Positions 10,510 to 30,260 of a stretch of DNA of 64,000 nt are shown piece by piece. How positions within the stretch are numbered: position 1 is the stretch's first letter; each line of letters starts with the position of its first letter. The notes beneath the pieces were generated by a model that did no database searches, was not told where the DNA came from, and saw only the letters and a list, made by a program, of their open reading frames with translations. The translations under genes were made by a program, and so were the position numbers. This DNA comes from Zygnema cylindricum (taxonomy: Eukaryota; Streptophyta; Zygnematophyceae; Zygnematales; Zygnemataceae). Location: positions 226,498-290,497 of the forward strand of contig JBBHKE010001552.1 in the NCBI GenBank assembly GCA_037447655.1, given 5' to 3'.

Positions 10510-12345
10510 AATAGAGCTAAATATCTACGGAAAGCAACCACGTAAGTCCCCGAATCCCGGAGGAGCACGAGGAGAAAGTTCCGGAACAACCACGCCGTCG
10601 ATCCATTACGGCATTAGACGATTTAGAAGCCAACACCCGTTGTAGGGCCACGGAAAAACGTTGACGATAAAAAGGAGTAAGGACTGAAATAGGAGGGCTA
10701 CCAGGTCCTCGCATCTCGAATGAGCGCCGACCACAAGTACGGAAAAACTCGTCCAAAGCCACACCCAAGCAACCAAATATCTCGACTGCCATCGGAATGA
10801 AGCCATCCGTAGCGTCGCGACGGGCATAATCACGCTCCTTCCTTTTAGCCGCGTCACGGGCAGCCACTCCCACATGACGAGCCGCTTGGTTGGCGACTGT
10901 AGTTGAGGTAGGGTTTTGCCACAACAATGTCTCCAAATGTACGACGCGCACCATCAAGTAATACAAGGTCAATCAGGCGCGAAGGAAGAATGTGAGACAC
11001 CTCTCGACGAACAGAAAATCCCCCCTCAGAAGCGATAGTAGCGATGGTGTCTCGAATCCTGTCGTGCGCCTGGATCAACTCACCCCCGTGGGAGCAACGA
11101 AGCAAATGGACCCCGTCGGGCTCGAGAACGTGGCCGCAGGAGCAAACAAGTGAGCCAAGCAAAGGTGGGTGAGGGAGGCCAAGTCGGAACCTAAGAGCCG
11201 TGGTGAATGGAGCCGGGGTGAAACGAAGAGTAGATAAGATAGGGACAGGCCAATAGCCAAGCTCTAATGCCAGATCCGCCACAAGACAAAAAACGTGCAC
11301 GCGAAGAATTAGAAGGAAGCGCCTGAAGAAACTCGGATTTAATAGCGGCCAACAACCTGATCAGATATGGATTCCTGAACACGCGCAACTGATGTCGTAA
11401 CGAGAGTGGAAAAAATCGGCATGTCCTCAATAGCAGCCGGATGAAGAGAACGTGTTGCATCCAAAGGGACCGCTGGAAGGCGAGCTCACCATCCGAAACA
11501 CGGATAACCACGGCCGCAAGAATAGGAGTGTCCCCGGCAAGAAAACGAGAGACAATAGTGGAAGCAACAAGGCACCAACTCCCCAAATAGGCGGTCGGAG
11601 CAACACGCGCCGTCGAGAGTAAACCCAAACCGCCAGAGACAGGAAGAGAGGCTTAGATGCGTGCCGCATGCCTAGACTCGCGATCAAAAGCTCCACGAAC
11701 CAACAAAGTGTGGAGGACATCCATAAGCCGATCATCGAATGCAGAAAGTGAGGACACAAAGGATGGGGTGGGAGGGGAAGTCCGAGTTAGGTAGGAGGGC
11801 CGGTGAGGGAAACACCGTGTGAGAAGAGCAAAGGCCACCTGGGAATCAAAAAGGTGAGGAAGGTCGTCCACATGGGATAAATCTGTCTGAAGAGCGGAAT
11901 CAAGGAATGTCGTGACGTATCGATCGGAACCAAGTGGGCAACCCAACACACGGATGCCTTCAAAAGGAGGAGGAGTCTGAAAACCAAGAGGGGGAGTGAA
12001 AGGAGGAGGAATAGGACGTGGGGACTAAACAACACACTTAGAGGGATGGACCGAAAGATTGAGTTCGGCCAAGCGAGCCTTGAAAAAGTCATAGGACGGT
12101 ATAACTTGATCCAAAGGACCAATAATATGTGTGTCATCTGCAACTGAACGGAAGAGGCAAGAAGGGTAAGCCGCTGCGGAAGCTCGGAGGGCGCGGTAAT
12201 GGGTTAGGGTTGTCGAGCGTGCCTGATTAACGTAGGGGAAGGGCCCACAGCCCGGAGTCGTCGGCAATTGGAGTCTTGCAAATAAACCCCGAATGCGAAT
12301 GCTTCCCAAAATGATTCTCATGCCCACTGCTGCCCACATCCCTCC
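10510..12345 (-). mobile_element. LINE copy B: RLE-type non-LTR retrotransposon, 5' truncated and frameshifted
   Basis: The minus strand runs from degenerate RT motifs (VADDTHIIGP in place of YADD, ~12150) through a thumb/linker with RVLGCPLGSDRY and VAPTAYLGSWCLVAS. The C-terminal region at 10854-11300 has CSCG, then HLLRCSHGGE, then HDRIRD, i.e. C-x1-C-x9-H-x3-C. This is followed by RLIDLVLLD...FGDIVVAKP, with 12 residues between the two aspartates. That arrangement is the zinc motif and PD-(D/E)XK nuclease of restriction-like-endonuclease non-LTR elements rather than the APE nuclease of plant L1. A downstream block (GFIPMAVEIFGCLGVALDEF) ends near 10517. There are several stops and frame changes. 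The 5' end is lost near 12240-12345, abutting the gypsy element. Confidence 0.82.
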
Positions 12346-12415
12346 ATAGATATGCCTGCCAAATAGGAGAGATGCTGGGACAGGGAATAGGGATGAGCGA
12401 AAGGGGAAGGCGAAA

Positions 12416-12446
12416 GTTATCCCCTCCCCCTTCCTTTCCCCCCCCC
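12416..12446 (-). other. Polypurine tract of the gypsy element (probable)
   Basis: On the minus strand this is a run of G followed by AAAGGAAGGGGGAGGGGA, just 3' of the end of pol. It sits where the plus-strand primer of an LTR element is expected. No LTR follows it: LINE copy B begins within ~80 bases. Confidence 0.55.
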
Positions 12447-12506
12447 CGGCCGGGGAAAGGGATATGGGTCTCGATAATCAGACTGATATCCCAATTTCCC
12501 CCCCTC

Positions 12507-12725
12507 TTAGTCAACCGTGACTAAGATATAAAAACAATTACCCGCTACATTCGCAGTTCCCATAGAACAGGTGCTGGAGGGTAAAGGGTGTGGCTCCCAA
12601 GAGGAGGGGAGACAAGCTGAATGCCAACCCTGACCACACTGATTGCAGACCAACATGTCGTGCAGCTGGGAGGATTGATTGCAAGTTGATGAACTGGAAA
12701 GAGGGTCGGCAAAGTAAGTTAAGTG
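12507..12725 (-). pseudogene. PHD-like zinc finger at the C-terminus of gypsy pol
   Basis: The frame that encodes the integrase C-terminal region ends in DMLVCNQCGQGWHSACL. This matches the second half of a PHD finger (C-x2-C-x4-H-x2-C-L preceded by a hydrophobic pair). A further TCSM follows after ~15 residues, where the last cysteine pair would be. The first cysteine pair is incomplete (a single C in SSSSTCNQSS), so the copy is degenerate or frameshifted. Chromodomains are the known reader at this place in chromoviruses; a PHD-type reader would be a functional alternative for choosing integration sites. Confidence 0.6.
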
Positions 12726-13960
12726 GAAAGTGGGTTTGTCTTCCAATCTCTGAAGATGGCAGGGGGCCACATTGATCTGATTCTCTTTAATTCGTGGACC
12801 ATCCTTTCCCTCTAAGGTAAGAACCCCTTTATTGGAAACTTCGACCACCTTCAAAATTACTCTCCCAGCAAAAATATCCAGCGTGTCCTTCTTCTGTTGC
12901 ATCTGATATACAAAGTCCCCCGGCATAAATCGTCGCTCTCGAGCACATAATTCCCGCTCCGGCGTTGAGAATACCACAACTGATCTCGGTGTTAAGCCGC
13001 TTGCAAATTGCACATGGCGAGAGGCATCTCTCGGTGGAATATCTTGGCTCTGTCGGCGATCAGTTTTTCGACTGTCCCCTTGTCATCTATCTCCGGAGGA
13101 CCACCGACGATCAGTTTTTCGACTGTCCCCTTGTCATCTATCTCCGGAGGACCACCGATTAGGCTGATGAAGCCCCGGGCAAGATGGGATGCCGTCCAAA
13201 TAGAATGAAATAAGGGCTATAGGAGTGGAGAGAAGCCTGCCTGCTAAACCTTTAACCCATAGCCATCCAAGGCACTTTTCTGTCCCACTCCCCCAAATCT
13301 TCTTCAACTGCATATTTTCGTAGTGACCGCTTCACTGTCTGTACGCACCTTTCGGCCAAACCGTCAGCTTGAGGGTGGTCACGGCTGGTCAACCGATGGT
13401 CGACCAGGCATTTTTCCAAGAGGATGGAAAATTATCCGGCGAATTCGGAGCCTTGGTCGGTTAGAACTTCCGCAAGCGCCCCGAATTGGGCTAAAACCCT
13501 TTGCAAAAGGCATCTACAATTTCCTTGGAGTCCTTCCGAGGCAGAACCACCAACTCGATCCACTTGGAAAAATGTTCTATCATGACCAGTACGAAGCGGT
13601 TCCTATGCCTGTTGGTGGGAAGAGGTCCTAAAATATCCAATGATCACCGATAAAACATCCCCCGGATAGGAAGTGAATGAAGCTCAGTCGAGCCCTTTTT
13701 GTCAAAAGCTGCCTTAACTCGATCGCATGAGGAGCAAGTCTGCACAATTCAGTTGACCTCGGTTCCCAACCCATGCCACCAATAAGAGCCCGTAACCAGG
13801 GAAGTGGTCCGTTTTTTGCCCGAAGTGTCCGCATTGCCGATGGAGATTGTAAATGAGAGTTTCTCGGTCAGAGGGGGGAGGAACCACTTTCCTCGTGTTG
13901 TCTGACCATTTCCGAATGAGAACGCCACTATCCCAATCATACGCACCCATCTAGGTCTGT
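12726..13960 (-). pseudogene. Gypsy integrase, fragmented
   Basis: The N-terminal zinc region (H...H, then CSSCDRVK near 13740) is followed by the catalytic core start GPLPTNRHRNRF, VLVMIEHFSKW (~13570-13650). Further core pieces follow in other frames down to ~13200. A basic C-terminal segment (RRFMPGDFVYQMQQKK) leads into the PHD-like finger. A 48-base direct repeat at 13060-13155 interrupts the C-terminal part. At least three frame changes are needed. Confidence 0.75.
13060..13155. repeat. 48-base tandem duplication inside the integrase region
   Basis: Two near-identical copies of a unit beginning CGATCAGTTTTTCGACTGTC and ending CTCCGGAGGACCACC lie head to tail. The length is a multiple of three, so frame is kept. 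Confidence 0.9.
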
Positions 13961-13982
13961 ACTCGGGATAATTAAATGCCAG

Positions 13983-14561
13983 TCAAGTGGGGAAGAGGCG
14001 ACCCATGCTGGATAGATTGGAGAGCATCCAGATGTCGTTTCGTCCTGCCCCTATGGGCCCATGCCCCTCCGCGTCGGCCAAGAAAGTTGACAATTCCCCC
14101 CCAGATTGGGGAAGCCGGATGAAAGCGGAGGATGCTCGAATGATTCCCAGACTGATCTCAGGGTCCTCATCATGCCGATCCCCAGTAGAATCCATGGTAG
14201 AGGGATCAGGATTCCGCCTAAGTCTGTCGACATTCCCATGGATTTCCCCTGCCCTATAAACAATGTCAAAATCATATTCCTGCAGGATAAGAACCCATCT
14301 GACGGGTTTGCCGGTTAACTTACTATTTTCCATGATCCATTTCAGGGGTTGGTGATCCGTGATCAAGGTGAAATGGACTCCGTACAAATACGGCCGGAAA
14401 TGTTGGATGGCCCAAACCGCTGCGAGTAACTCTCCGTGGTAACTGCTATAATTCCCCTCTGCCTTGTTGTTGCTCCGACTGGAGTAGGCCAACACATATT
14501 CAGCTCCGGCATCATCTACTTGAGCCAGAACCGCTCCCAATCCAAAACCTGCTCCAATCAA
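13983..14561 (-). pseudogene. Gypsy RNase H domain
   Basis: A 192-codon frame carries the RNase H signature of Ty3/gypsy elements: FGLGAVLAQVD, EGNYSSYHGELLAAVWAIQ, FTLITDHQPLKWI, then LQEYDFDIVYRAG. The DHQPL aspartate and the early glutamate are present. The domain itself is open, but the frame ends before the integrase. Confidence 0.88.
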
Positions 14562-14709
14562 TATAAAGGAGGAAAGGTCTTTGGTGATTTGGCATCCGGA
14601 GCACGGGGTGCTCCTTCAGAGCATCTTTCAAAAACTGGAAGGAGATCACCTCATGTCGGAGGTAAATGATTTTTCTGTACCCCAAAAATACCTTTGCCCG
14701 GGTGACATT

Positions 14710-15320
14710 TCAAGCCCGCTGTTTAGAGTGCCCGGAGAACGATCTGGACATGCTCCAGGTGTTCCTCAAAAGTCTTTGAGAAGAAAATAACATCATCAAT
14801 ATAGCACCGGGCACAATCGATTCCTCGGAGCGCTTCGTCCATTGCCCGTTGGAACTTGGCCGGTGCATTCTTAAGCCCGAAGGGCATGTAAATCCATTCA
14901 TAAAGTCTGGAACCAGCCCAAAATGCAGTTCTCTCCCTGTACTTCAGTTCCATGACAATCTGGTGGAAACCATTTTTCATGTCCAGGGTGGAATAGATAT
15001 TGGTGCCAGCAAGAGAGTCGAATATCTCTTCCGGAGTAGGCATCGGATACCGGTCGGAGATGGTGGCCGTGTTCAGCATGCGATAATCTCCGCACATCCA
15101 AAAATCTACAGTCTTCCTGGACGAGTCCTTCTTGGGAGGGAGAACTATCGGGGAAGCGAACCCATGAAGTTCGGTACTTTCCTGAACCGATCCGGCTTCC
15201 ACCAAAATCTGGACTTTAGCCGTGATGAATTCCTTTTCCTTCAAACTGAGAGGATACTACTTCTACCAAATAGTGGCCGTCTCGTCGATCAAATCGATTC
15301 GGAGGTGTTCCTTTGTAAAT
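14710..15320 (-). pseudogene. Gypsy reverse transcriptase domain
   Basis: The open frame 14723-15244 contains GFASPIVLPPKKD, the DYRMLN block, STLDMKNGFHQI (motif A aspartate), MPFGLKNAPAKFQRAMD (motif B) and CYIDDVIFFS (motif C). All catalytic aspartates are kept. The N-terminal lead-in lies in the adjoining frame at 15244-15320. Confidence 0.92.
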
Positions 15321-15729
15321 ACCGACATCTGTTTTTGACCATGAGAACACCTGCATGTTTTCGGCCAATAGTTCGGAGAGCCGCGCCTTCTGCTGAGGTT
15401 CCAACTGCTCCCTGAGTGTCTAATCCATTTTCCCAGGCTTTATTGAGCCCAAGCCTCTGACGGTCTACCCCAGAGGTTAATATAGAATTCCAATCCTACC
15501 AAGGGATCTGCCTCTACTCCTCTGGCTAGGACTCTACTGCTGACAACTTCCGTTAAGCTGTCGCCATCTGAGCCGCCGCCCCCCCCTACTGGAAAAACCT
15601 GCGGTGGTGGAATGTGAATTTTTCTTCTCCTTTCTCTCCCCCCCACAAACTGCAAAGTTGCCTGCATCGCTAACAACTAAGGAGCTTGAAGGTAAACAAC
15701 CCTGGATTTCGGGGACTTCAGACTGGAAA

Positions 15730-16790
15730 AGGCGAGTGCATGCTTGAGTACCTATGTGATTGAATTCAAGTCCATACTCTGTCCAATTAGGATGCACTTA
15801 TGAAGCTCTGAGATACATTGTGCTGCCGTTGTGCCTTTATGAATTCCCATCGCTTCTTCCCGTTCTACAATCGTCGATGTTGTTCGGATTCCCGCCTTAC
15901 AGTCAAAAATCATTCCCGCTGCTCCTTTCCGTTAAGCGTGACTTTGAGGGAAAGATACCAAGGTCGGGAGTGCTCTCCGTGGTAATCCTGGTTTGTTGCA
16001 CTGAAAGAAAGGAGAGCGGTCAGGTCGCGTCACAGGGGTGGCCATCCTGCCTTCCCCAAGTATTTGCTGGACCGAATTCTGTGGGTCGGGAATTTGCTTG
16101 TCTAACAGTCGTCGGAGTACTGGAAGCGGGATCACATTGGTCCAATATGCCCTTACTCTGTGTGCACAGGATCCCATCTGTGCGGCGTTAAAAGCCAAGG
16201 GAACTCCTAAAATCCGGGTTACGTGACTCCAACTGTCCGCAACCTGTTTCCTTTGCTCATCTCTCGGGTGAAATTTTCCAGAACGTACCCCACCGGTGTG
16301 TCCTGATGCTGTTTAAGCCACGTGATTAATTCGATCATCCGGTGAAATGTTCCACTTCTGCGGTCATGATGCCCTTTTCCTTGTCGGCTAGGGAGTATCC
16401 TTGACAAGGCCAGCCTACCAACACCAAATCCACTCTTCCCAACCTGGCTAGATGAGGCGCCAAGATGTTGTCTGTATTTTGGGGAAGCCTTAGGTGAGCT
16501 GTGGAAATGGCTTTCACTAGAAGCTGTTGAGGATATACGTGATCAAGCTAGTGGAGACGGTGTTTGCTGACAGCCCGCGCCTCGGGTAATATTTCCACGA
16601 CTGTGTATGACTCTACTAGATATCCTGTTTTCAAAACTGTTTCCAAATTGGAACTAATTCCTGAAAATAGAGATAAAATACGGAGTCCGGAATCGATGAC
16701 TGCCAATGACACCACTTGTCGATTGAACTCCTCGTTACTGGACTTCGGTTTGGAAGCCTTAGACATAGTGCAGAAACGGCTTCCTTCAAT
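15730..16790 (-). pseudogene. C5-cytosine DNA methyltransferase (DNMT3-like) inside gypsy pol
   Basis: The minus strand encodes, in order, motif I ILSLFSGIS (~16670), VVEILPEA (motif II, ~16600), DLVLVGWPCQGYS with the catalytic Pro-Cys (motif IV, ~16410), VGYVLENF (motif VI, usual ENV, ~16280), CAHRVRAYWTN (motif VIII, ~16150), and a C-terminal part with EREEAMGIHKG and IGQSMDLNSI (motifs IX-X, ~15770-15850). Order I-IV-VI-VIII-X is that of DNMT3; plant DRM enzymes have the order rearranged. S-adenosylmethionine would be the methyl donor and cytosine in DNA the target. This copy has one in-frame stop at 16548-16550 and at least two frame changes (near 16340-16400 and 16200). It sits between protease and RT with no sign of a separate insertion. 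Confidence 0.85.
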
Positions 16791-17049
16791 TTTAAGGCTG
16801 AAAATGCCTTATCCACTCCCCACCGGAGTTTTGCTACCTGCAATAATCTATCCTTATATTCTCCTTCCCACCGCTTGGAAATTGGGAATTGCTAGATTTC
16901 TTTGGCGATATCTGTAGAATTGCCAAACAGTTTCGTAGGAGATGATGTAGTGTATACCGGGTAGCAACCAGACACAAGGACATTTGTCTTCCCCCTGTTC
17001 CATAAATCCAAAAGAACCACCACTTTGGTTCCCTCCGGATTTTTGTGGT

Positions 17050-17435
17050 CCAGGACGGTACATTGTTCCTTCCACACACTCAAACTCATGTTGAGTCGGG
17101 TCCAAGTGGCCATTCCCAACAGAATTTTGAATTGAGTTCCTTCCACCACCAAGAAGGGACCTCAATTTTCACCCATTGGCCTCCGTCATCAGCAAACTCG
17201 ATTTCCATGGCCTTGATTATTCCATAGACTGGTTGACTACCGTTGCTTACGGTGCTAAAGCAGATATTCCTTGGGCAGATTTCGGGCCGGAGTTCCTTGA
17301 GCATTTTTTTGCAAAGCAGAGGTGGTAATGAGGTTGGGGAGAGCTCCAGTGTCGACCACGGCGTCTTGGTATCCCCCGTACCTGTTGAGCTTGAAATTTC
17401 CAGTCCGGTTAAGTATAAGAGCCACTTATAAGGCT
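17050..17435 (-). pseudogene. Gypsy aspartic protease (retropepsin)
   Basis: The motif VVDTGALPNLIT at 17330-17365 is the catalytic Asp-Thr-Gly block. About 85 residues later VVEGTQFKILLGMATW gives the second conserved strand (ILLG). It follows gag and precedes the methyltransferase. A frame change separates the two halves. Confidence 0.8.
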
Positions 17436-17514
17436 TTGTAGTCCCTATCCACTATAGGGGTTTTAGGGTCGGTGGACATAAAAACTGCGGTTGGCAGAGT
17501 ATTCTTGTCTACCC

Positions 17515-17575
17515 CCCCCTTTCCAGAGTGGATCTCCTCTCCCCCCTTTCCAGAGTGGATCTCCTCTCCCAGTGC
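17515..17575. repeat. ~25-base direct repeat between gag and protease
   Basis: The unit CCCCTTTCCAGAGTGGATCT followed by CCTCTCC occurs twice in tandem. Confidence 0.8.
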
Positions 17576-17659
17576 CTGAATGAGGATTTCTTCGGGCATA
17601 TTGTGGAAGGTTGCCAGAGTCTTCACGTGTGTGAGGGCATAGGACGAGGTGCCGGACTA

Positions 17660-19545
17660 GCATGATAGTCGGTTTGGTGGAAAGAAGTGTTGCTTTCGGT
17701 GAACATAGGGATGAGTTCGGTTCCTACAGATCCTGATCTTGTCCTTCTTTCTCACTCTTCGAACCGGAATCTGGGATCGGAGGTGTTTGGGGAGTGTCAT
17801 TCTCCGGGCGTTCTGCCATATATCTCTCAAACCGGTCCTGATTGTCCTTTTTCTCTCGTTCAAGTGACTCCTTCTCTCGCTGTTTTTTCTCGATCTGGTA
17901 ATTTTGAAGCCGGGAGGCAATTTAGGTTTGGGAGGAAGAGATGGTGGGTGATTGGGTTTGATTCCTAAGCTGAGGTCGCTCTTCAGCATTACTACCCTGG
18001 GAGTAAATGACAAAGGTCCTGTAGCTTTCCGGTTGTGATCCCTCTGACCCATTTTCTACCTGTCCTGTGTTTGCATCGAGGTGGAATTGCGGAGTTGGCG
18101 GCGGTTATCTCCCACCCCAACATTCCAAGCTCCGGACATGAAGGTTCGGGCATGGTGGGCATTTAGGGGTTCCAAATCCCAGCCCAATAAGTCCTCATCA
18201 TTGGCCCCCGCTGTGCCTTGAAGCTCAAGCTCCGCGAGCTTCTGTAACAACTCTTGTCTATGCTTTTGGAGTCATTGCGCTGATGTGAGAGGAGCAGGCA
18301 GGGAAGAAGATCCCAAGCGGAGGGCAGCGACTCTACAGCCATGGCGGCCAGCTGCTGACTCTGTTGCTGTATGATGATCTCCGGCGTAAGCTGGGCCGGA
18401 GCACTCGGGGCTCGCGCAGGTCTCTCCGGTGTGGATATCAGTTGGTGCCCCTAAGGGGAAAGAAGTTAGAGTGGGAGAAGGTTAACAGTTGTTTCTCCTT
18501 CTCCAGTAAACAAAGCAAATTGCATCATTTCCTTGGGTACTCCATTTTTCCGGAAACATTGTCCTTCTTTGTGCCCCAAAAATCCACAAGCTTCACACTA
18601 GGCCCCCTCGATGGTATATTTACTCCGGATTTCGTTGGAGATTTGAGCGTCATCAAACTTTAAGAGTTTGATTTGTCGCAACTAAGATTGGGACATTTTA
18701 GAGGTTTCGCTCCGTGGAGTTGGACGGTAAGTCTCCTTGGTTATCGGTGTCTTGTCCTCTCCTCTCCCTCCCTTGAGCCTTTCTTGCTGTTTCAAGGTCC
18801 TCTCTGCGCGTTCTTTTTCCCATTCCTTCAGCTTTAGTGCTAGCTCCGATTTCAGTTTCCACCCATGGCCTGGTTGCTCACAATTCATGCAATTGTAAAG
18901 GAACACTCTCTCATCTGCTCCCATTGCTCGCTCTGACCCGCTGTCACCCACTTGCTTCCCTTTAAGCTTCCGCAAAGTTTGAAGCTAGCCTCTTCCTCCT
19001 CATTCAAGGAGGTATCCTCGGCGAATCCTGCAAAATTTGATTGGGCTTTGCCGGTCATGGCCTTCTCCCTTGCCTCATTGTTGAAAATGTGGTCATACAA
19101 TTTCATCGCCACAAGTGAGATTTCCTTTGCGGAAGGATTGATGTCCTGAATTGCCTATCCCGCAATCCAATTATCTAGAGCAGTCTGCCCTGTCAGTCCG
19201 AAAGAATTACGGACAATGATAAAGTATTTAGTTGCCATTACCGGAAGGTCAATTTAGGTTGGAAAGTCGGTTGAAGAGAGTTTGGGGGGTCTCATTCTTC
19301 AAGCATCAGAATTCCCTGAATTCCTTGATTGCTGACTCGTTTTTCTTTGTGTAGAGGAGTCTCCACATGTTCAGCAGAGTGGTACAAGGGTTGGGATTAG
19401 CAACCATGCGAGTTGCTGCTTGGGCTGCCTGAATGGCTTGCGGGTGGTTAACATAGGCACTTCTTTGTGCCTGCGGTTTCATGTCCTGTGTAAAGGTAGC
19501 CTGAGATTCTATGGGCTCCATTGCCACAGAAAATTCGCATATCAA
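17660..19545 (-). pseudogene. Gypsy gag, fragmented
   Basis: The first codon is probably the ATG of MEPIESQATF near 19521, about 200 bases downstream of the LTR. A frame of 79 codons ends at 19306. Later pieces include KEISLVAMKLYDHIFNNEAR (capsid-like) and CMNCEQPGHGW, which resembles a zinc knuckle CxxCxxxGH lacking its last cysteine. A charged KEWEKERAERTLKQQERLKG segment follows. Gag sequences are poorly conserved, so the assignment rests on position plus the knuckle. Confidence 0.6.
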
Positions 19546-19737
19546 AAGAAGTTAATCTAGATAGTGTCAACTCCAAGTTTATATAAAACCAAATGATTAA
19601 CCCCTTGACAGTCACAATCCCATTACAGCTTCACCCCTGTGAATTAAAACTTTCTGTATGCTCAGTTCCACCACAGAATGCAAAGCTAGAATATGAGATT
19701 TGGACACATTCACCCACTTTGACTTTCCCTTAGAAAT

Positions 19738-20812
19738 GCAGCCACCCATTCACACAAAAACTCTGACCGACTACACCGTTGTGTAGCCTAGACTCCCTTG
19801 AGTTTGCAGCAAAAAGAATCACTGAAAATGGTCAACTGAGTTTATAGTTATAGCTGGCCAAAATTTTCCATTTATACAAGGTGCTCTCTGGGAGAGAGGT
19901 GGCTACCTACCCGAAATATTCTAAGTCCTAAACCCCTTTCTAAACCCTCTAGTACTGAGGTACGGACCAATCACATTACTGTATAGTACATAAAGGTACA
20001 GATGCATGTGTACTTTTTGTACGGTCATCGTACGACAAGGCTAAAAAGTCAGCACATGTCCTATTCGGACTCGCTCTTATAATCTCCGGCATTTTTGCCT
20101 CCAAACCTTATCTCTCCACGTGGCGCCAGGTCATGCCGCGTAAAAAAAATGGTACCGTAAAAGAAAGTACAGGTGCTGGAGTATTTTCTGTACGGACATT
20201 GTACGATATTGCCATAATGTGACATTTGTCACATCCAAATTTGTTGTGTTCCGTTCGAGAAATTCCGCAACCAGTACGATGTCGCCATGTGTCATACGGA
20301 GTGGTGATGTCCGCAAACCGCTAAATTATCCTTTCCGTGAAACCGGCGCTAACCACGGCCGTTCGATTTACATCGATATTTATTACAGACCGTCGAAACA
20401 AATGTCCGTACTATTTGTTTCGTCAGGTAATTTAAAGTACTATTGTTTCTATGTCCTATAACCAGTAATCCAGTTAAATAAAATAACTTGGAAGTAACTA
20501 TTTATTTAACTATCAAACCCCATATGTCGTAGCACTAGCCCTAGGATAAACGGATAAAGCTACAGGTTACTGATGACTTGACGGACGGTAGGTACCACGA
20601 TCAATTCCTGGGTCCGTCAACTACCCTTTTAGTAAACCTACTTTTATCTACCCTTGTCTCTCTGTAGGGCTTAGGCAGCCATGGCTCTAGTCCCCTTTCC
20701 AGCCTTTAGTGACTACAACAAATGTGGGGGCTTGGAGAAGGGAGTCAGAGGCAGACTGCCTTTGCTCCTTTTCTATCCTAAGAAAGACCTAGAAAATACT
20801 CAAATATCAACA
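19738..20812 (-). mobile_element. LTR copy L1 (5' LTR of the gypsy element)
   Basis: This is a ~1.07-kb repeat with TG...CA ends, closely resembling L2 and L3. Shared landmarks in order are TAGCAAAAAGAAT-like sequence, CTCTCTGGGAGAGAGG, TACTGAGGTACGG, CATCGTACGACAAGGC, a GTCCGTCA hairpin, GCAGCCATGG and GACCTAGAAAATAC. Its low-coordinate end adjoins the gag leader of the minus-strand element. Confidence 0.8.
20578..20620. other. Hairpin resembling a tRNA acceptor/T-arm minihelix (LTR L1)
   Basis: TTGACGGAC and GTCCGTCAA form a perfect 9-bp stem enclosing a T-arm-like segment (ACGATCAATTCCTGGG). Equivalent hairpins lie in L2 (23556-23599) and L3 (25479-25520). Confidence 0.6.
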
Positions 20813-22860
20813 TAGCCATCACAGGTGTCACCGCCGTCGCAACCAAGTCAGCCTCCGCTTGTAAAACTGCAGCATCAAGGGTTGGATCTGAGATCTTGAT
20901 GCTAGGAGCCATCAATAGAGGTTGACGCTCCTTTTAATCCGCCAACGCCCCTTCGAAAGGTAGTTGACCATCATGGGGAAGAGTGTTGTTTCGAAGTCAT
21001 CCGGAATGGCTCCCTCTGGTACTTGTTTATTTTGGCTTGTGTGAAAGATTTCCACAACAACTCGAAATCGGAAAATGCGATCCCCGAGCTATCTCTGGTA
21101 AAGATTCGGATATTCCCCAATTCCTTTTTTTCCTCTCCAGGGTTGGTGAAATGGGAAGAGGAAGGTCTTGGGCCAATAAACCGGGCGGTGATAACTCCCG
21201 GATTTTCCTGACCGCCGTCTCTCAGAGAAGGTCAGTCCTCCCACTAAGGAAGTACCAGCGCCTGAAAATATGGTTGGAGGAAGGACGTTCCCCACTACTC
21301 CTCTATATCCAGGAGAATATTGTGCCTCTTTGAGCACGGTCTCCACCGATGGAATAGGGAGACGAGGCTTGTTCAAAGGCTTTGGTGGGATGGCCGGTGG
21401 TGGAGACGGAGAAAGAGATGGTGACGGAGACTGCGGAGCCCTTGTGGGGGAAAGTGTTTGTCTCGTGGTTTGCCTCCTAGAGGTCTCGTGAGGTGGAGTT
21501 TCGCAGTTCGAGGAAGGAGAGCGTCGGTGAGGAGGTGAATAGGCAGGTACATTGTATTTGTAGGGCAACACAGACGGACCTTGCGACCCACGGACAGATA
21601 CAGCAGAATAAACGGATGGCAAAGGAGAGGAGGCATGACAATCCCGGGGCCTTGTGGTGCGTCCCGGGGAGTGGGAGGAATAAGGCGGAGGAGGAGAAGG
21701 TGGGAGCTCCGGAGAGCCTCTGGGAGAAGTGGAAGGAGGGTGTTGGCGCCCTTAAGGGAATGTGAATCTTCTCGTCAGGTCGTAACTCCACCAAAGCCTC
21801 CACACTAGTTCACACCTCTACAGAGACAAAGGTGGTCTCTCCCTGAAGAGCCGAAGCGAGTCCTGAAGGTAAATCTGCACCCAAACCCTTCACATTAGAT
21901 CTTGTGTTTCCCTCCCCTTTCCACTGAAGAGGAGGCTCTCGGCTTGGTTCTGAGGACGGAATGTCGGGCTGAGTGTTGGCGAGAGGAGAGGTCCCCGCAG
22001 CTGGGGCTTTTGAAAGTGGCCCTATCTTTAGTGTAGGAGGAATCTTCCCACTAAGAATCCCACTTGTCCTACGCCGATCTTCCCTAATAAGCGTCCATGC
22101 CTTTCGCCTTTCTTCCTCTAAGGCCTCCCAATCTACCGTGGCGGGTCCGGCCCCCGCCGTAGCCTGTCCCTGGGATTTTAGAACCTCCACTAGTTCTTTG
22201 GCTTTAAGAGTTGGGGATGTCTCCTCCTTGGAAGCGGTGCGAATCTCCACTTGCTATCACGGTGGTCAAACCTCTTTCCCCTCAATGGGTCTCGTGCTTC
22301 CCTCTCGATAACCCCTTCTCCTCTGCAAGGCCGCAAAGAGGTACGTCCTCGAGAGGGTCTGCTGGCTGCGGTGTCCTGAGAAAAAGACGGGGGAGGGCGA
22401 GAATAGGGAGCTCTCTGTGACCGGTCCTGCACTGACTGTGAAGAGCTGCTCTCCGAAGAACTGCTCAAAATCTCCACCACCCCTCCCACGGGTCTAACCA
22501 CTCTGACTCGATCTGTCCGAGCCACTCTCTGTACGAACTCCTATTTCACCTTAAGCTCATGGAGGTTGTGACGGGCAAGGAGTTCCTTAATACTTGGGCG
22601 ACATGGATCCGTCAAAACCGCGGGGTCAATCTGAATCTCGGTCCGGGAATTTTAGATCTGGTGTGAAGCCCGGCCTCTGGAAGAGGACCCAAAAGAGGCT
22701 CCCTATGCGCTTGCCTCTTTGGCCGAGCCCTAGGAGACACCTAGTTCCTCTCCTAGGCCTGAGCCCAGTAACTTTGAGACCTCCATAGGACCTCAGAGTA
22801 GGCAGCTCACACGAAGTCTCTATGATAACCCTGACCCCTTTGTGTTTCGGCAAGAATAAC
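20813..22860 (-). mobile_element. Internal region between LTRs L1 and L2, probable gag-like/non-autonomous sequence
   Basis: Open frames on the minus strand at 22190-22525, 21810-22250 and 21089-21622 are rich in proline, serine and arginine. They include PSPSLSPSPPPAIPPKPLNK and a charged stretch, WEALEEERRKAW. They have no RT, protease or integrase motifs and overlap in different frames. The position directly downstream of L2 suggests the gag-side remnant of a second element or a non-autonomous derivative. No function can be assigned. Confidence 0.45.
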
Positions 22861-23828
22861 TGCCACCCTCACACACAAAAACTTTGACCACCTACACGTT
22901 TGTAAAGGCAAGACTCCATTGAGGCAATAGCAAAAAGAATCTCTGAATTTGCTCCCTTGAGTACTAAGTTATTAAAGGTCAAAGTTGACCTTTTGTACAG
23001 AAGCTCTCTAGGAGAGAGGGTCCAATCTATCAAATTTTTCTAAGTCCTATCTCTCTCTAAAACTCTATCTACTGAAGTACGGCACCAATCATAATAATGT
23101 ATCGTACATAAAGATACACTTGTCGTTGTACTTTATGTACGGCCATTGTACGACATGGCCAAAAAATCGACACATGTCAATTTTGGATTCATTCCTGGAA
23201 TCCGCAGAGATGACGTAATCCAATATGATTGTGCCACGTGGCGATTGATGTGATGTCAACAGCAAACCGCCAAAAACCTATTGCGCAATCTGGGCATACT
23301 TCACGGCCGTCCGATTAAGCCGGATTACAATCGTGGTCGTTATAAATACTTGCGTAATATTTGTTTCGCCTTCTAAACAGAATGCGCGGTATCCGTTTCG
23401 GATGTGTCGTACGCCGTACATTACAAACTGTATCTATGTCTAAATATCACGTTGAATGAAGATATCCGACTTGTTAACATTTAAATAACTATTAAACCCT
23501 ATATCATATATCTCTGGTTTATACTAGTTGGCTAAGGCTACCTGCTACCAGCTACTTTGGCGGACGGCAGGTATCAAGTTCGAATCTTGGGCCCGTCAAT
23601 TTTATTTTTTAAAGATCTAATAACCTAATATGCGTCCCCGTCAGGATAGCATAGGCGCGTAAACCTCTGGATAGCCTAGGTAGCCATGGCTCTAGCTTCC
23701 TCTCCAATTTCTCAGTGACTGCGACAAGTTTGAGAGTTGGAGAGAGAAGTTAGAGGTAGACTGCCTCGGCTTCTTTCTTATTTCAATTCAGACCTAGAAA
23801 ATACTTTAAAAGACCATTAATTTCTACA
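22861..23828 (-). mobile_element. LTR copy L2
   Basis: A 968-base relative of L1 and L3 with TG...CA ends. It carries a TATAAATA at 23340, the hairpin with a pol III B-box-like AGTTCGAATCTTGG at 23578-23591, and the terminal block ATTAATTTCTACA. Confidence 0.78.
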
Positions 23829-24770
23829 CTCCCATGATGATAGAGGTAACGAGAGAAATAGTGTTGAATGTAACTAGAGCTCACTTCCAAAAAAGAGAGC
23901 TTCCAGAGTTAAAGCTCCTATCACCTCTAATCCGAGCAGACAAGTGTGGCTTTTCAGTACTGTGTTTTGTCTACGGGAAGTCTATCGCATTTGTTCCCTC
24001 AAAACCCACTTTCCTGAACCAAGGGGTTTCAGCTTACTCCAAAAAGTAACTCCAAAGCAAAGAGAACTCCAGATGAAGACACAAATACACTACCACATAG
24101 AGATATATAAAAACAAATATGATTGGCTTTCCAGATTAAACAATATCACCTTGCCCCAGAAAAGAGAATAAAAGATAGAAAATGTGAAATGTAGCGAAGC
24201 GAGCTCAACATACCCTAACGATCAACGATGAAAATTAGAAAAAGGCGACCACTCTCCCGATAGTATCGTCAAAAGGTATGGTACTCCTGCAACCTTCGGT
24301 GTTCGCAACTCGGAACTGACCAGACTCTTCTCGGTTCCAAACAGCAAAAAGTCCAAAATCACCCAATAAGGAAGATGGTGCCAACTACCCGCCCAGACTG
24401 TGATTTCCACAAAAGACAGATCTAAAACCAAGATGGCAATAGAGTCGAAACAACACAAAGATTCTCCAAAAGAAGGAAATCACAAAAGACAGATCTAAAA
24501 CCAAGATGGCAATAGAGTCGAAACAACACAAAGATTCTCCAAAAGAAGGTTTGTTGGAATTTCTGTTTTCACAGGAGACAGTACTGAATAGCAACCTGTC
24601 TTCTTCGACCCAGAGTGCCTTATACATCAAAGTTTGTCAAATTGCATGTCCAAAAGTCAAAGCTACGCTATTAACCAATGAGCGGCTGCAATTTTGTGTC
24701 CTCCATTGGACTACAGAATACAGGACGCATCTAGATATTATTTAACTAACCCACTTAAAGCCACAACCAC
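23829..24770 (-). mobile_element. Internal region between LTRs L2 and L3
   Basis: There is no recognisable coding domain. A 73-base tandem duplication lies at 24408-24550. L3 plus this region plus L2 has the overall form of a short (~2.9 kb) LTR element without genes, but L2 and L3 differ too much to be a fresh pair. Confidence 0.45.
24408..24550. repeat. 73-base tandem duplication
   Basis: Copies begin CACAAAAGACAGATCTAAAA at 24408 and 24481 and end in CTCCAAAAGAAGG. They are virtually identical, so the event is recent or was maintained. Confidence 0.95.
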
Positions 24771-25726
24771 TGCTGCCCAAAAAGACAAACTGACAATTCG
24801 ACTGCACCCTTGTGCAGCATGGACTCCCTTGAGTCCGTAGCAAAAAGAATGACTGAAAACGGCCAACCAGCCGATAAGTTATAAGGCAGTAAAAATGTCA
24901 ATTTGTACAAACTCTCAAATGGAGAGGTGACTACCTACCAAAAAATTTCTAAGTCATGATTCTCTCTAATAACTTCTATCTACTGAAGTACGCGCCGATC
25001 AGATTACTGTACCGTACCAACAAGTACTACTGCCAGTGTACCTTCTGTACGGTCTATGTACGACAAGGCTATTAAGCGGACGCGTGTCCGCTTTTCACTC
25101 GTCCGTACGTTCCTCGGAATTCCTATGACCGAATGTCATCTCTCCATGTGGCTCCAGGTCATGCCACGTCACAAAACGCCAAAGTGACCACTCCGGTATT
25201 TCGGCGATGATGTGCGTTGTTGGATTTTACGCGAAATGCAATCTTGGCTGTTATAAATACTTGCGCGTCATTTGTTTCGTTGTCGAAACAAAATGCGTGG
25301 TATCCGTTTCGAATTTGTACCGTACTACGTACTTTCTAAAACTGTATCTATGTATGCCTTATACAGTTGCAGTTAAATGGATTTATTCCTCCCTAAAAAA
25401 TATATATATCTATCACATACTATAGCATTTAGCATTGGTCCTAGTCTATTAGGATAAAGCTGACCGCTACCGACCAACTTGACGAACCACAGGTACCGGG
25501 ATCAAATCCCGGGTCCGTCAGGTATATTTCTAGAAACCTACTAAAAATAACTTTCCTGTTGAACTAAGGCAGCCATGGATCAACCACCCTCTCTATCCTT
25601 CAGTGACCACAACAAGTATGGGGGCTAGAGAGAGGAGGTGGAGGCAAGCTGTCCGTCCTTTTCTTTTCCTTTTATACAAACATATTTAAACCTAGAAAAT
25701 ACTCTAGAAATCTATTAATTTCAACA
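24771..25726 (-). mobile_element. LTR copy L3
   Basis: This LTR is 956 bases with TG...CA ends. On the minus strand it is followed after one base by TGGTTGTGGCTTTAAGTGGG, a plausible primer binding site because it starts TGG. It contains TATAAATA at 25252 and the best-formed T-arm-like hairpin (CCGGG-ATCAAAT-CCCGG, 25496-25512). Confidence 0.8.
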
Positions 25727-25929
25727 GCGGCAAGCAAGTGTAATTGAACTGACACAAGACAAAATAATCCGTACTACACTAGGGGCAAAAGGTTCTGCTC
25801 CGGACTACGGCTAGATCCGCCGCCGGAAGTAATTATTCGGTCCACTATTATAAGACAAAGTCTTGAAAGGGACACTAACTTGCCAGACTTTGACCTAACG
25901 TAATTAATGAACAAAAAGTCAGCTAAAGC

Positions 25930-28160
25930 TGAACTAAATTCCTACTGACGGCAACCAGCATAATCTAAATGCAAATCCGGAAAGTTACGTGGCAATCCAC
26001 AATGTACCCCCCACGGGGGCTGGTGGCAAATGGTTCCATGTAACCGGATGGTAATCTTTGAGACAGTATAACTTGGTCGTTCCGCCTCCGTTAAGCGCGA
26101 AACAAAGTGCGTTCCGCTCAGTTGAGAAAATCCAACAATCTGGTCTGACTGGGTGCACTCCTTCCTCCGTACAGTGCTGGCCGTACAGGTGGAAAAGGTC
26201 TCGGAAATCCTTGGAGATATAAAGGTGTGTCTGCCAGTCATGGAGGAAAGTGGGACCAAATCATCATCACTGGAGAAAGAGAGGCTACTGCTTAGAGAAT
26301 AAAAAGCTCTCACAAAAGGAAATATGTGGACAATCAGGGAAGGTGCAGCTATAAGCTCCGAAAAAAATGCATTCCAATCCACTGTATTAAAGGCATTAGA
26401 AACATCTACCTGGAGAACTAACTAATCCGGATGGGCATCTAACAAAGCCCGGATCCTGTGGACCACCGCCTCACAACCCCCCCGGGTTGCCACTCCGAAC
26501 TGATGAGGGGAGAAATAATCATGGAAAGCGGGGTGGAGTTGGATGCAGATGGCGTGGACCACCAATCGGTACAATGCCTGGCCCACTGCAATAGGACGGA
26601 TTCCCCCATTGGGTTTGGTGACAGGTACGAGGCGGGAGGCCGTGAGGAGATCACAAATACGAGATGGGACATTGCCAGTTGCAATAAGGGAACAAACTCG
26701 AAAAAACATATAAAAACCCCGAGCACCAGATTTTGGAGGCAGAACGTCGCGAAATAGCTCATAAACAGTGCCCGAAGGACCCCCCGCTGAAAGATGTGGA
26801 GAAGTAATAAGGGCTTTAGTAAAAGAGTCTCCATCCAAGATAAGACACTCTGTCGGCTCGAAGGTGTGAATAGAGGGGGACTGAGGGGTAGGAGCTGGTG
26901 GAAGAAGAGCCCGAAGAATTTCAACAGTTGCTGCAGATTGAGGAGCAAGATTAAATGGATGGAGGGCCCAAACCGCTCGAGAGAGCTCACCAACTCGACC
27001 CAAATGAACCGCACGACGATACGAAGATGACACATCTGAAGTCCGAGATGTACGACGCGGTGTGAAGGAAGCAGTCGCAACTCGATCGACGTGCTCGGCA
27101 TGAAGGGTCCGCCAATCACCTCAAAGAAAACGTCGAAATCGGGCCATAATTTCTCGGGCCCCGCTACCACCGCCACGGCCCGGTAAGACTAGACCCAAAG
27201 TGAAAACATGAAAAGGAGGTGCCAAGGTCCAACATCCGCGGGATCCGAATAAATACAAGACAAAGGAAGGTGGAGGGCATCATGTACGATAATCCGCTCA
27301 GCCATGGGAATCCGCGTGTATAATCGCGGACCGGGGGCCCCCAAATCATAAGCTCCGAGCACGACTAAATTGCGTACAAATGCCCAATCTTCGCTTGTAG
27401 GTCCGGACGGGAGTATGGCGGAAGAAAGGGTACTAGAGGAAGGGCAGCTGTGGGCTAAAAATTGTTGACAACTCTTTGTATGTCGGGCAATACCGGCACC
27501 GGTCGCGAAATGGTTATGAAACCCGCTACATTTTATCCGTTTTTAGGCTTGTGTGTGAGGTTAGGTGGAGGAGGATAACGAGTGAGAAGGGGCGAGTATG
27601 TACGGCCGGACATGGTCATTGAATGAGAGGGAGAAGCATGGGAAGTGATAGAGGAAGGAAGGAGAAATGGGAGGAGAAAGGGGCCGCTGGGAAATAGATG
27701 GTGGAGGAAATATGGATCGACTCGAATCGTCGGAGATCAAAATCGAGATCTCGGCGGCGTCAAAGGCAATCGACTGAATCCGTCTCGAAGGAGAGTCGAG
27801 AAGATCCGTCGAATGAAAAATCATCGGTTCCGGTCGAAAATCGGCGGAAACAATAAAGTGATCCGCAAAGATTGAAAGGAAAGTCAGGAAGGTAGAATCA
27901 GGAATGGAATAAGAGGAAGGAAAAGGTGGAATTAAAATGGATGGACTTAATGCATCATAAGGAAGGAATAAAGGAAAAGTGTGAAGGTGAGGAAAAGCCG
28001 TCTGACGTTGAATAGAAGGGAAAAGGGATTTAAAATTACTGCGAAAGATGGGGGCGCACCTATGATTTTGCCGTGGGCGTGCAGTTAGCGGCAGGCCGCA
28101 GCGCAGATGCAGAGGTACATGGTGATGTAGGTGTCGTCGCGTAGTGGGGAAGAACAACTT
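25930..28160 (-). mobile_element. LINE copy C: N-terminal region and first half of RT, RLE-type family
   Basis: On the minus strand an upstream frame (28157-27561) is rich in proline and histidine. It is followed after a break by CSGFHNHFATGAGIARHTKSC (~27530), which resembles an eroded zinc-finger region. The RT domain begins with LVPVTKPNGGIRPIAVG (~26620), then HQFGVATRGGCEAVVH (~26490) and motif A LQVDVSNAFNTVDWNAFF (~26400). The RT breaks off before motif C near 25940. Frame changes occur near 27040-27180 and 26400. Copies B and C cover opposite halves of one element type. Confidence 0.8.
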
Positions 28161-28460
28161 AGATCAGGTACATGGTGGGGGAAGGTGCGTCGCGTAGTGA
28201 GGAAGACGACAAACTTCGTCGGAGCTACATGGTGACGTGGAGTGGGTGCCGTCGCGTAGTGGGGAAGAAGACAATAAACTTCAGATCCGTAGGTTCATGT
28301 GACGGAGAGTAGGTGTCGTCGCGTAGTGGGGAAGAAGACGACAAACTTCAGATCCGGAGGTACATGGTGACGGGGAGTAGGTGCCGTCGCGTAGTGGGAA
28401 AGAAGACGACAAACTTCAGATCCGGAGGTACATGGTGACGGGGTAATGGGTGCTGGCCAT
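28110..28460 (-). repeat. Tandem array at the 5' end of LINE copy C
   Basis: About 5.3 copies of a 54-68-base unit are present, each with GTCGCGTAGTGGGGAAGAAG, ACAAACTTCAGATCCGGAG and GTACATGGTGACG. Unit starts are near 28131, 28184, 28246, 28313 and 28381. The last two copies are the most alike. The array lies directly upstream, on the minus strand, of the first LINE frame. Confidence 0.85.
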
Positions 28461-29240
28461 CATGGTGGTTAAGCATGTATTGGGTGTATATTGGATGTCG
28501 AAGTTTGAACCCTAATTTCCTATCAAAGTTGTAACCGATAGTTCTAACTTGGAAGTTGGTTTTGTAAATGGTTATTTCTGTGAAAAAATGGTTGAATTTG
28601 ATTGATAAATCTAGCTAGTGTGTTATTTCCTGTAGTACTACAGATAACAAGGGGGTAAAAGGAGTTTTTTTAAAAAAGCTCAATGGAGAACCATCGTAGT
28701 GTATGGACGCAAAGGAAACAGCTCGAACGAAACCAAACAGTGGGCAAGCTAGCCTAATGTAAAAAGCCAAACAACTAAAAATGGTTGGACACCAGGGAGG
28801 CCAATCCCGCAAAGTGTATGAAAAAGGGCAACACGTTTTCAACCATCAGAAAGAACACCATGACAAAACGTACTCCAAACAACCCACAAACGTCTAAAAC
28901 CAATGAGAAACGAGCCATGTTAATCCCCCAAGCTTGGTGGAGAATGATGTAGGAGGTTTGGGACAAGTAGGCGATACATAGCTGCAATAGGGGAATGATG
29001 AAGAATGGAGGCATACACACGCTGTAGAGCCAAATGTTAGTGAAAAAAATTCGTAAAAAGTCGTGAAGATTGAACTGTGGAGGGGTTTCACTCTGTCCCC
29101 CCCCCCTCCTCTTTGCCCCTCCGTTTTCTCTCTTTCCCCCTTCCCCCTTTTGCCCTCCCCCTTCCCATTCAGGACCCCTCCTTCCCATTCAGGACCCCTC
29201 CTCTCGAAGGACGGCCGACAGTATGGAAAAGTTCATAAGA
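28461..29240. other. Spacer between LINE copies C and D
   Basis: No gene is recognised. Minus-strand frames at 28615-28842 and 28775-29188 have a cysteine/phenylalanine-rich composition that could be eroded LINE sequence. C-rich runs at 29100-29210 include a direct repeat of CTTCCCATTCAGGACCCCTC. Confidence 0.45.
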
Positions 29241-30260
29241 AGCAACGTCCTTGTCCGTCCATCAACCGAAATCTCGACCGCCATTGAAATGATGTCATCC
29301 ATGGGGTCATGACACGCCTCACGCTCCTTCCTCGACCATCGCTATTAGCGGTCGTCCTTCAAACTGAGCATTATGAGAAGATGGTTTACCATCGCGCATT
29401 TTAATAAAGTCGGTATGCGATTGGACCTTACTCTAGCCAGAGTTCTCTGAACCAAGGTCACCAAAATTTTGACAAAGTACCATAGAGCAAGAGAGTGTCG
29501 AAACGCTGCGAATGAACAATATGTGAAAACCTCACGCTGAACAAAAATATCCCTCGCAGAAGAGTTAGTCGCGAAACTGCTGCAAACATTGCCGTGTGTC
29601 TGAATCACCTTTCCCCTCATGGGTATAAGAGAGAAAATGGACACCATCAGGCTCGAGAACACAGGTGTAGAAGCAAACAAGAGGGTCGAGCAAAGGCGGA
29701 TGAAGGAGGCCAAGCCGAAACTCGAGGGCAGAGGTAAATTGATAAGGCGTGAAGAGTAGAGTGGATAGGATGGGTGCAGCCAATAGCTAGGCTCCAAACT
29801 ATAGCCTCTGCAGGAAATAAATTGGGCGTGTGTAAAGTCAGCGGGAGTGTCTCGAGAAGCTTAGATCGAGTGAGGCGACGAAAGGCAACACACATGGATG
29901 GTAGAACATAAAGGTTTTATTCGGCCGTGCGAACTTTGAAAAAGTAGTGCGTTGGAACAACTCAAGGCCGGTGGCATGTGTATCGTCCACCATCGACGGG
30001 AAGAGGCAAGAAGGGAAAGTGGAAGTAAAAGCCCGTCGGGTGAGCAAGGGCAAGCAAAGGTCCCTCAAGAGGAGAGGAGTGACTATCAGTCTTATTTGGA
30101 AGAAAAACCGAGCCACTATCAGCCGAAAAGGAAGATACTTGGCTAGAGAGTAGAAAGCTCGCACGGAAAGGGCGATCTGGACAATCTGTGAGGGGACACC
30201 AATACGCTCGTAAAAATTGACTTCCCAGTCCACCGTATCGGAGGCAGTCCTCCTTTTGGT
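29240..30260 (-). mobile_element. LINE copy D, decayed, RT motif C to nuclease region
   Basis: The minus strand has DTVDWEVNFYE (motif A end), MVDDTHATGL (motif C relative), FRLGLLHPPLLDPLVC and LEPDGVHF, which match copy B. At the nucleotide level 29250-29340 also matches copy B 10770-10840 (ATCTCGACYGCCATYGRAAT, TCACGCTCCTTCCT). The zinc motif has lost cysteines and stops are frequent. Confidence 0.75.

Follow-up and report, generated by a model that had tools for sequence, protein, structure and literature searches.

A decayed Ty3-type retrotransposon of Zygnema cylindricum belongs to a family with a DNMT3-type methyltransferase domain at the start of Pol

Retrotransposons that carry a cytosine methyltransferase of their own were described in 2018, in a single charophyte and in dinoflagellates (de Mendoza et al. 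2018, PMC5890265), and two systems of that paper are close to the present locus. KnitGypsy-Dnmt3, from Klebsormidium nitens, holds a Dnmt3-type domain inside a gypsy-type Pol, and a figure legend assigns the structure of DIRS elements to the repeats of the K. nitens element (PMC5890265). SymbioDIRS-Dnmt3, from Symbiodinium, carries Dnmt3 in Pol beside the reverse transcriptase (RT), together with split direct repeats and a tyrosine recombinase (PMC5890265). As a kind, the DNMT3-bearing gypsy-type element has been published since 2018 (PMC5890265). Here, we analyze a 64,000-nucleotide stretch of contig JBBHKE010001552.1 from Zygnema cylindricum (“the window”; positions are counted from its first letter), the minus strand of which is occupied from ~26.2 to ~12.2 kb by one degraded Ty3-type retrotransposon. 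In transcription order, this copy encodes gag, a protease motif, an in-frame UAG, a DNMT3-type domain, RT, RNase H, integrase, and a PHD-like finger. We are practically certain of its identity and architecture, that is, of a Ty3-type family (family A) in which a DNMT3-type methyltransferase is the first domain of Pol; the overall explanation of the window element and of family A developed below has, in our judgment, a probability of roughly 0.8.

The order of protease-like motif, DNMT, RT, RNase H, and integrase is shared with the K. nitens protein P0056, which answers in part whether the family was already known, a question left by the first-pass annotation of this window. Also as in KnitGypsy-Dnmt3 (PMC5890265), the DNMT is under purifying selection, and the DIRS-like repeats of that element have counterparts in a second family of the Zygnema genome (family B) and, in part, in family A. 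However, the DNMT of P0056 is 37% identical to that of L014, a stop-free relative of the window copy, and the K. nitens proteins group separately from family A in both DNMT and RT trees. In addition, the annotated P0056 runs from the protease-like motif through the DNMT without a stop, whereas family A has a UAG there; a PHD finger is present here, but none is shown by P0056, a partial protein; and the present genome holds more than 100 DNMT matches. In contrast to SymbioDIRS-Dnmt3 with its tyrosine recombinase (PMC5890265), both L014 and the family B copy L011 encode an rve (DDE-type) integrase. The UAG junction, the C-terminal PHD finger, a second DNMT position described below, and members from Marchantia and Closterium were not met in the covered parts of PMC5890265, PMC12344493, PMC6453930, and PMC6338049, which does not establish their absence from print.

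The first-pass annotation, made from the letters of the window, had reported a DNMT3-like domain on the minus strand between a DTGA protease and a YIDD RT. We located all of the motifs that it named, those of the DNMT running from 16685 down to 15764. The broken domain (15720–16770) comprises LRILSLFSGISSN (16647–16685), GWPCQGYS (16392–16415), VGYVLENFT (16267–16293), HRVRAYWTNV (16133–16162), EREEAMG (15845–15865), and GQSMDLN (15764–15784), and thus keeps PCQ with the motif IV cysteine, LENF, and RVR. The protease active-site motif DAVVDTGALPNLITT (DTGA; 17321–17365), assigned by motif alone, lies upstream on the same strand, and the RT (14726–15244; RVT_1, 8e-22), with CYIDDVIFF at 14780–14806, lies downstream. 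DRM methyltransferases have a circularly permuted motif order, unlike the order I-IV-VI-VIII-X that is present along the strand here. Read through with X at the breaks, the window domain matches DNMT3C (2.5e-6), DNMT3A (6e-6), and DNMT3B (5.4e-5; best E values) in the PDB and four database proteins at E values of 4.4e-47 to 8.1e-33, while the Pfam DNA_methylase match to the broken domain is weak (E of 0.002, under the curated cut-off). The stop-free domain of L014 reaches 2.8e-13 against DNMT3A, and the DNMT3-like assignment was borne out. By sequence and predicted fold, the L014 domain is closest to DNMT3 (DNMT3A/3B) rather than to DNMT1, DRM, DNMT2, or bacterial enzymes; families missing from the Foldseek/VIA rows do not count as excluded. 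The window copy itself cannot make the enzyme, because its DNMT spans three frames (2, then 1, then 0), implying at least two frameshifts, and contains two in-frame stops. It has further lost ~205 bp that separate RT from RNase H in L014 and L015 (deletion at 14640–14641, minus strand) and holds three nested repeats. We regard the window element as an old, inactivated copy of family A.

Whether the domain is a fixed part of the family was addressed in the genome assembly (352.8 Mb, 2,689 contigs). A search with PF00145 gave at least 123 matches (of 782 candidates, 123 were scored, each of them above the cut-off), and one with the L014 DNMT domain gave at least 119 (118 candidates scored of 1,877). 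Some pairs of rows on different contigs have equal scores (C895/C1515 in an RT search; C2179/C2675 and C839/C2519 in the L014-domain search) and are perhaps uncollapsed haplotypes or duplicates, in which case these counts would not equal independent insertions. The RT search, which is blind to the DNMT, returned at least 150 matches among 2,877 candidates, with 77 to 99% identity to the window RT among the matches listed; each fourth row was drawn from it (38 of 150), and 21 of these 38 loci were analyzed. DNMT protein sequence lies directly upstream of the RT in 20 of the 21 relatives (protein match at E ≤ 1e-5), three of which (L039, L046, and L047) hold a partial domain. In the exception, L056, a repeat termed R has been inserted at the DNMT site, so that no more than the final ~45 nt of the DNMT are left. 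The concern that sister copies might lack the domain, or that it might be a separately inserted host fragment, is therefore answered by its occurrence at the same place across the RT-chosen copies. DNMT, RT, RNase H, integrase, and PHD finger form single frames of 1,525 codons in L014, where the domains were checked, and 1,520 codons in L015, and the DNMT also shares one frame with the RT in P0005 and P0024, which come from other sources. Two loci run counter to a uniformly maintained domain: the DNMTs of L054 and L055 are 37% and 48% identical to the family, versus 85% and 76% for the starts of their RTs, and may have been relaxed or replaced. Elsewhere in the genome, a family A RT that is 87% identical to the window RT (G000:C961:71950-72465) lies inside a reported open frame of 5,743 codons. 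A PEPC exon agrees best with plant enzymes (5.3e-87, versus 1.5e-53 for 1fiy, the most distant one listed), and further ORFs match an FBD-type F-box LRR protein, Rce1, and, narrowly below the cut-off, P450, as would be expected of a plant or a streptophyte alga. A scan for viral contigs (two loci) brought up a 505-aa cytosine methylase among phage-like genes (L001), which, judged by its open reading frames (ORFs), is unrelated.

Gag-protease and DNMT-Pol of the window copy are separated by the in-frame UAG at 16892–16894 (minus strand), which is followed by CAATTC. The codon at this junction is TAG in 25 of 27 aligned family A copies and is kept in 14 of the 16 copies that are less than 80% identical to L014. 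Over 25 copies, the modal fractions of TAG, CAA, and TTC are 0.92, 0.92, and 0.96; 55 other codons average 0.61, and the five codons directly upstream of TAG have 0.24 to 0.72. Given this conserved stop and the open frames on both sides of it (L008/L015 and L027), we read the UAG as a probable site of programmed readthrough, which would make the DNMT a Pol-level product. Several observations weigh against this interpretation: the junction codon is TAC in L044 and TAA in L051, and eight other codons, mostly just downstream, are conserved as well as TAG. Moreover, the tobamovirus readthrough signal is UAG CARYYA, and the CAATTC that follows the UAG in most copies agrees with it in five of six bases and so falls short of the full signal. 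The earlier question whether intact copies keep protease, DNMT, and RT in one frame is answered positively for DNMT and the rest of Pol in L014 and L015 but negatively for the protease, which the conserved UAG splits off.

The DNMT segment was examined for purifying selection, as the first-pass annotation had proposed. Of the 16 family A loci entered, 14 gave enough DNMT for ratios of nonsynonymous to synonymous substitution rates (dN/dS), and the median was 0.22 (41 of 91 pairs usable; median dS, 0.17). Among stop-free copies, the DNMT median is 0.27 (9 of 21 pairs); integrase gave 0.20 (6 of 10 pairs), and the linker between DNMT and RT gave 0.33 (36 of 36 pairs), four of the five close pairs shown having values of about 0.5. 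In three close pairs with both domains, the DNMT ratios of 0.13, 0.25, and 0.12 stand beside RT ratios of 0.10, 0.23, and 0.08. Because the ratios are low, and similar for DNMT and RT in close pairs, we conclude that selection has kept the DNMT, about as tightly as the RT in those pairs. Two points call for caution: 50 of the 91 DNMT pairs were unusable, their dS being either saturated or too small, and the family A RT value of 0.03 (15 of 21 pairs) comes from pairs in which dS approaches saturation (median, 1.6), so that a comparison with the DNMT median is not valid. For the latter reason, we dropped the idea that the RT is more constrained than the DNMT. Family B gave 0.08 for DNMT and 0.02 for RT, each from 3 of 21 pairs.

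Protein database searches returned 65 relatives, and domain positions were compared in all of them. The DNMT precedes the RT in 13 (K. nitens P0056, Closterium, and environmental proteins), while in 17 others, which we call type II, RT and RNase H precede the DNMT (P0032, P0034, P0040, P0041, P0043, P0045, P0046, P0048, P0049, P0050, P0053, P0055, P0057, P0059, P0060, P0061, and P0064), with integrase after the DNMT in 15 of the 17; the remaining 35 show no RT beside the DNMT. Type II proteins, from environmental and EukProt sources, resemble family A in their Ty3-type RT, RNase H, integrase, PHD finger, and related DNMT, but carry the DNMT between RNase H and integrase. This second position implies that the DNMT has been kept through rearrangement. 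Families A and B carry a PHD finger at the integrase C terminus, as do most of the type II proteins long enough to include this part. Proteins from Closterium sp. NIES-53/54 (P0004, P0008, P0010, P0016, P0021, P0022, and others) likewise have a protease motif followed by DNMT (P0021) or DNMT followed by RT (P0008, P0010, and P0016); in contrast, they are 30 to 38% identical to the window domain (P0004, P0008, P0010, P0016, P0021, and P0022), and motif IV reads GWECQ in P0004, P0008, P0010, and P0022. In Marchantia polymorpha, a protease motif and DNMT share one ORF (P0026, P0029, P0037, and P0042), and P0026 is also named for a CCHC domain. Identity to L014 is 39 to 44%; P0026 ends after the DNMT, and the other three are marked partial. 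Judged from these sequences, the ORFs represent DNMT3-bearing retroelements in a land plant. Among the remaining proteins, the DNMT of P0006 is followed by a G-patch domain, and P0063 is listed with PF05869, which we take to be Dam adenine methylase, beside its DNMT.

A DNMT tree of 55 rows, from which 20 of 75 had been left out as near-duplicates, decayed, long, or redundant, recovered type II as one clade (99/99) and family A with P0005, P0024, and P0025 (97/83). Marchantia falls into a clade of its own that includes environmental rows (97/98), and further clades unite Closterium, P0047, and P0051 (97/95) and K. nitens, P0002, and P0030 (100/100). Relative to two animal DNMT3 rows, the DNMTs of all retrotransposons lie on the same side, in a tree built without plant host DNMT3 rows. 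The groups A, B, Closterium, and K. nitens recur in an RT tree (42 rows, short search), but the type II RTs are not united there in a single supported clade. On the strength of these matching groups, we conclude that DNMT and RT have traveled together within each of the four.

In family B (L011 and others), gag and a protease motif are followed by DNMT, RT, RNase H, and integrase and then by a full PHD finger, and in L011 the whole coding order lies in a single frame of 2,395 codons. Its terminal repeats are split in the order A-coding-B-A-B, complete in L011/L059: repeat A (L011, 1–880) recurs downstream of the coding region (100% over 434 bp; 96.8% with L059), as does repeat B (L011, 9138–9379) beyond the second A (L059, 513–755; 99.6%). 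In family A, the 3' end (B1) of L026, L028, and L029 is followed directly by a new 5' start (A2), whereas L014 and L015 end at B1; between the ends of L014 or L015 no direct repeat was found, and the terminal repeats of the copies examined are not ordinary long terminal repeats (LTRs). Nor was a target-site duplication seen by eye at the ends of these two copies, which counts against our interpretation. The Ty3/gypsy label given earlier therefore stands for the proteins, with the nearest PDB RT of L014 being that of Ty3 and with the order protease, RT, RNase H, and integrase. Because L014/L015 show no direct terminal repeats and L011 has split ones, the element is Ty3-type by its proteins only and is not shown to be a canonical LTR element. 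L011 and L012 are 99.87% identical over 7.2 kb, with the first 2.7 kb lacking a match; this points to recent movement, although the pair may instead be an assembly duplicate, one end of which was rearranged. The family B PHD finger is nearest to those of PHF12, BAZ2B, WSTF, KDM5, and PHF21A, several of which read unmodified H3, and it may form a reader-writer pair with the DNMT.

Two alternatives bear on what the element is. The view that a host DNMT3 fragment was inserted by chance into this one copy, with no function in the element, has in its favor that the window by itself shows a disrupted domain without a second strong copy. The presence of the domain across the family refutes this reading: the DNMT lies at the same place in 20 of the 21 RT-chosen relatives, shares a frame with the RT in two proteins from other sources, and is under purifying selection, which leaves chance insertion next to no probability. 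It is also improbable that the UAG is a plain disabling mutation that all copies inherited from one dead master. Their common ancestry would allow for it; however, frames of ~1,520 codons are still open downstream in the TAG-bearing L014 and L015, dN/dS is low, and the five codons upstream have drifted to modal fractions of 0.24 to 0.72 versus 0.92 to 0.96 for TAG, CAA, and TTC. Under programmed readthrough, ribosomes would occasionally pass the UAG, and the DNMT would be produced at the same low level as RT and integrase, giving a testable account of a limit on enzyme dose. It would then enter the particle together with them and methylate the new double-stranded complementary DNA (cDNA) before or at integration, so that a new copy would arrive already methylated and would either look like host DNA or be silenced in advance; histone H3 may be the target to which the PHD finger directs integration or the enzyme.

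Such self-methylation of cDNA is the likeliest role for the DNMT, although we would put it slightly short of even odds. A DNMT3 that is part of Pol, is kept by purifying selection, and would be available at the dose of Pol suits this role. The same role was proposed for SymbioDIRS-Dnmt3 from the position of the domain and its activity in yeast; against it, no methylation was obtained in yeast with the domain from K. nitens, a result that the authors called inconclusive (PMC5890265). The CpG observed/expected ratio is 0.60 to 0.69 in nine family A copies but 0.79 to 0.95 in nine copies of family B, which also bears a DNMT, and TG/CA is 1.05 to 1.06 in family A, 1.06 in family B, and 1.00 in the flank. 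Since family A lacks a TG/CA excess over family B and family B is little depleted, CpG content gives no clear support, and we rejected it as proof of self-methylation for want of a consistent signature between the families. Another possibility, unlikely but worth considering, is that the DNMT acts on host chromatin, where a PHD-bearing Pol complex would methylate around the insertion site and hide or insulate the element. The recurrent PHD finger at the integrase C terminus fits this idea, as does the affinity of the family B finger to readers of unmodified H3, which recalls the ADD domain of DNMT3A/3L; the protease, however, would be expected to cut the DNMT from integrase-PHD. A noncatalytic domain, e.g., a DNA- or RNA-binding spacer in the particle, is quite doubtful. 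To our knowledge, the proline beside the catalytic cysteine of motif IV is nearly invariant in C5 methyltransferases, and its replacement by glutamate in 8 family B rows of the tree set (WECQ in 7, SECQ in 1) and in 19 other rows favors such a loss. Yet the motif IV cysteine is present in 63 of 73 retrotransposon rows, the other 10 having no match to the search pattern (WPCQ in 13 of 17 family A rows, the other 4 again without a match), and in alignment A2 (15 rows) the ENV glutamate and both RxR arginines are invariant and the cysteine is nearly so.

Going beyond cDNA self-methylation in family A, it is tempting to speculate, if only tentatively, that one old Ty3-type lineage, spanning Klebsormidium, Closterium, Marchantia, the present genome, and environmental sources, carries DNMT3 plus an H3-reading PHD finger as a portable reader-writer module. 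The DNMT would have two alternative places, ahead of RT or ahead of integrase, would be released in family A only by UAG readthrough, and would set the methylation of the element's own new copies or of their insertion sites. Retrotransposons are usually targets of cytosine methylation; if this proposal were true, a parasite would set its own epigenetic state. The kind accounts here for more than 100 DNMT matches in one genome, in two families, and has relatives in Closterium and the land plant Marchantia; the near-identical L011/L012 should make self-methylation testable via the host methylome.

The remaining parts of the window element lie on the same strand. The whole element (12210–26260, ends approximate) measures ~14 kb including its three nested repeats, against ~11.0 kb for L014 and L015, and is colinear with L014/L015/L057. 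Its 3' end, CAGGCACGCTCGACAA, is the common end of the family, and its 5' end is eroded, the final match being at 26227. The N-terminal part of gag (20884–22250), with broken frames, matches L014/L015 in blocks, and the ORF at 21810–22250 is similar to their gag-side ORF. The C-terminal part of gag (18556–18894) has two Cys-rich, knuckle-like motifs, NCMNCEQPGHGW and CEACGFLGHKEGQC, with similar motifs in L014/L015; Pfam searches gave no match for the ORF at 18682–18975 in this region or for that at 17086–17304, which excludes the protease motif. Downstream of the RT follow RNase H (14199–14561; RT_RNaseH, 4.8e-30) and an integrase with broken frames (13351–13805), recognized by its zinc-binding and catalytic motifs; in L014, integrase matches Integrase_H2C2 (8.7e-14) and rve (9.7e-12). 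The PHD-like zinc finger at the Pol C terminus (12534–12677) scores 1.6e-4, under the curated cut-off, as does that of L014 (2.4e-4), while family B L011 reaches 1.5e-9.

The three nested repeats, R1 (19500–20880, within gag), R2 (22760–23828), and R3 (24679–25726), are foreign to the element. We considered them as its LTRs and rejected this, as they are three insertions of another repeat of ~1.1 kb. Copies of repeat R are ~60 to 77% identical to each other, with a further match in the window at 8–183, and also occur inside L025, L028, L029, L039, L047, and L056, in three of which (L025, L039, and L056) they lie at or in the DNMT region; repeat R may be a nonautonomous element or a solo repeat. 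Elsewhere in the window, 10702–12106 and 29190–29962 are alike (~61%), with open frames that resemble another retroelement, and short tandem arrays occur at 24408–24549 (73-bp spacing, two copies) and 28232–28434 (67- to 68-bp spacing, three copies).
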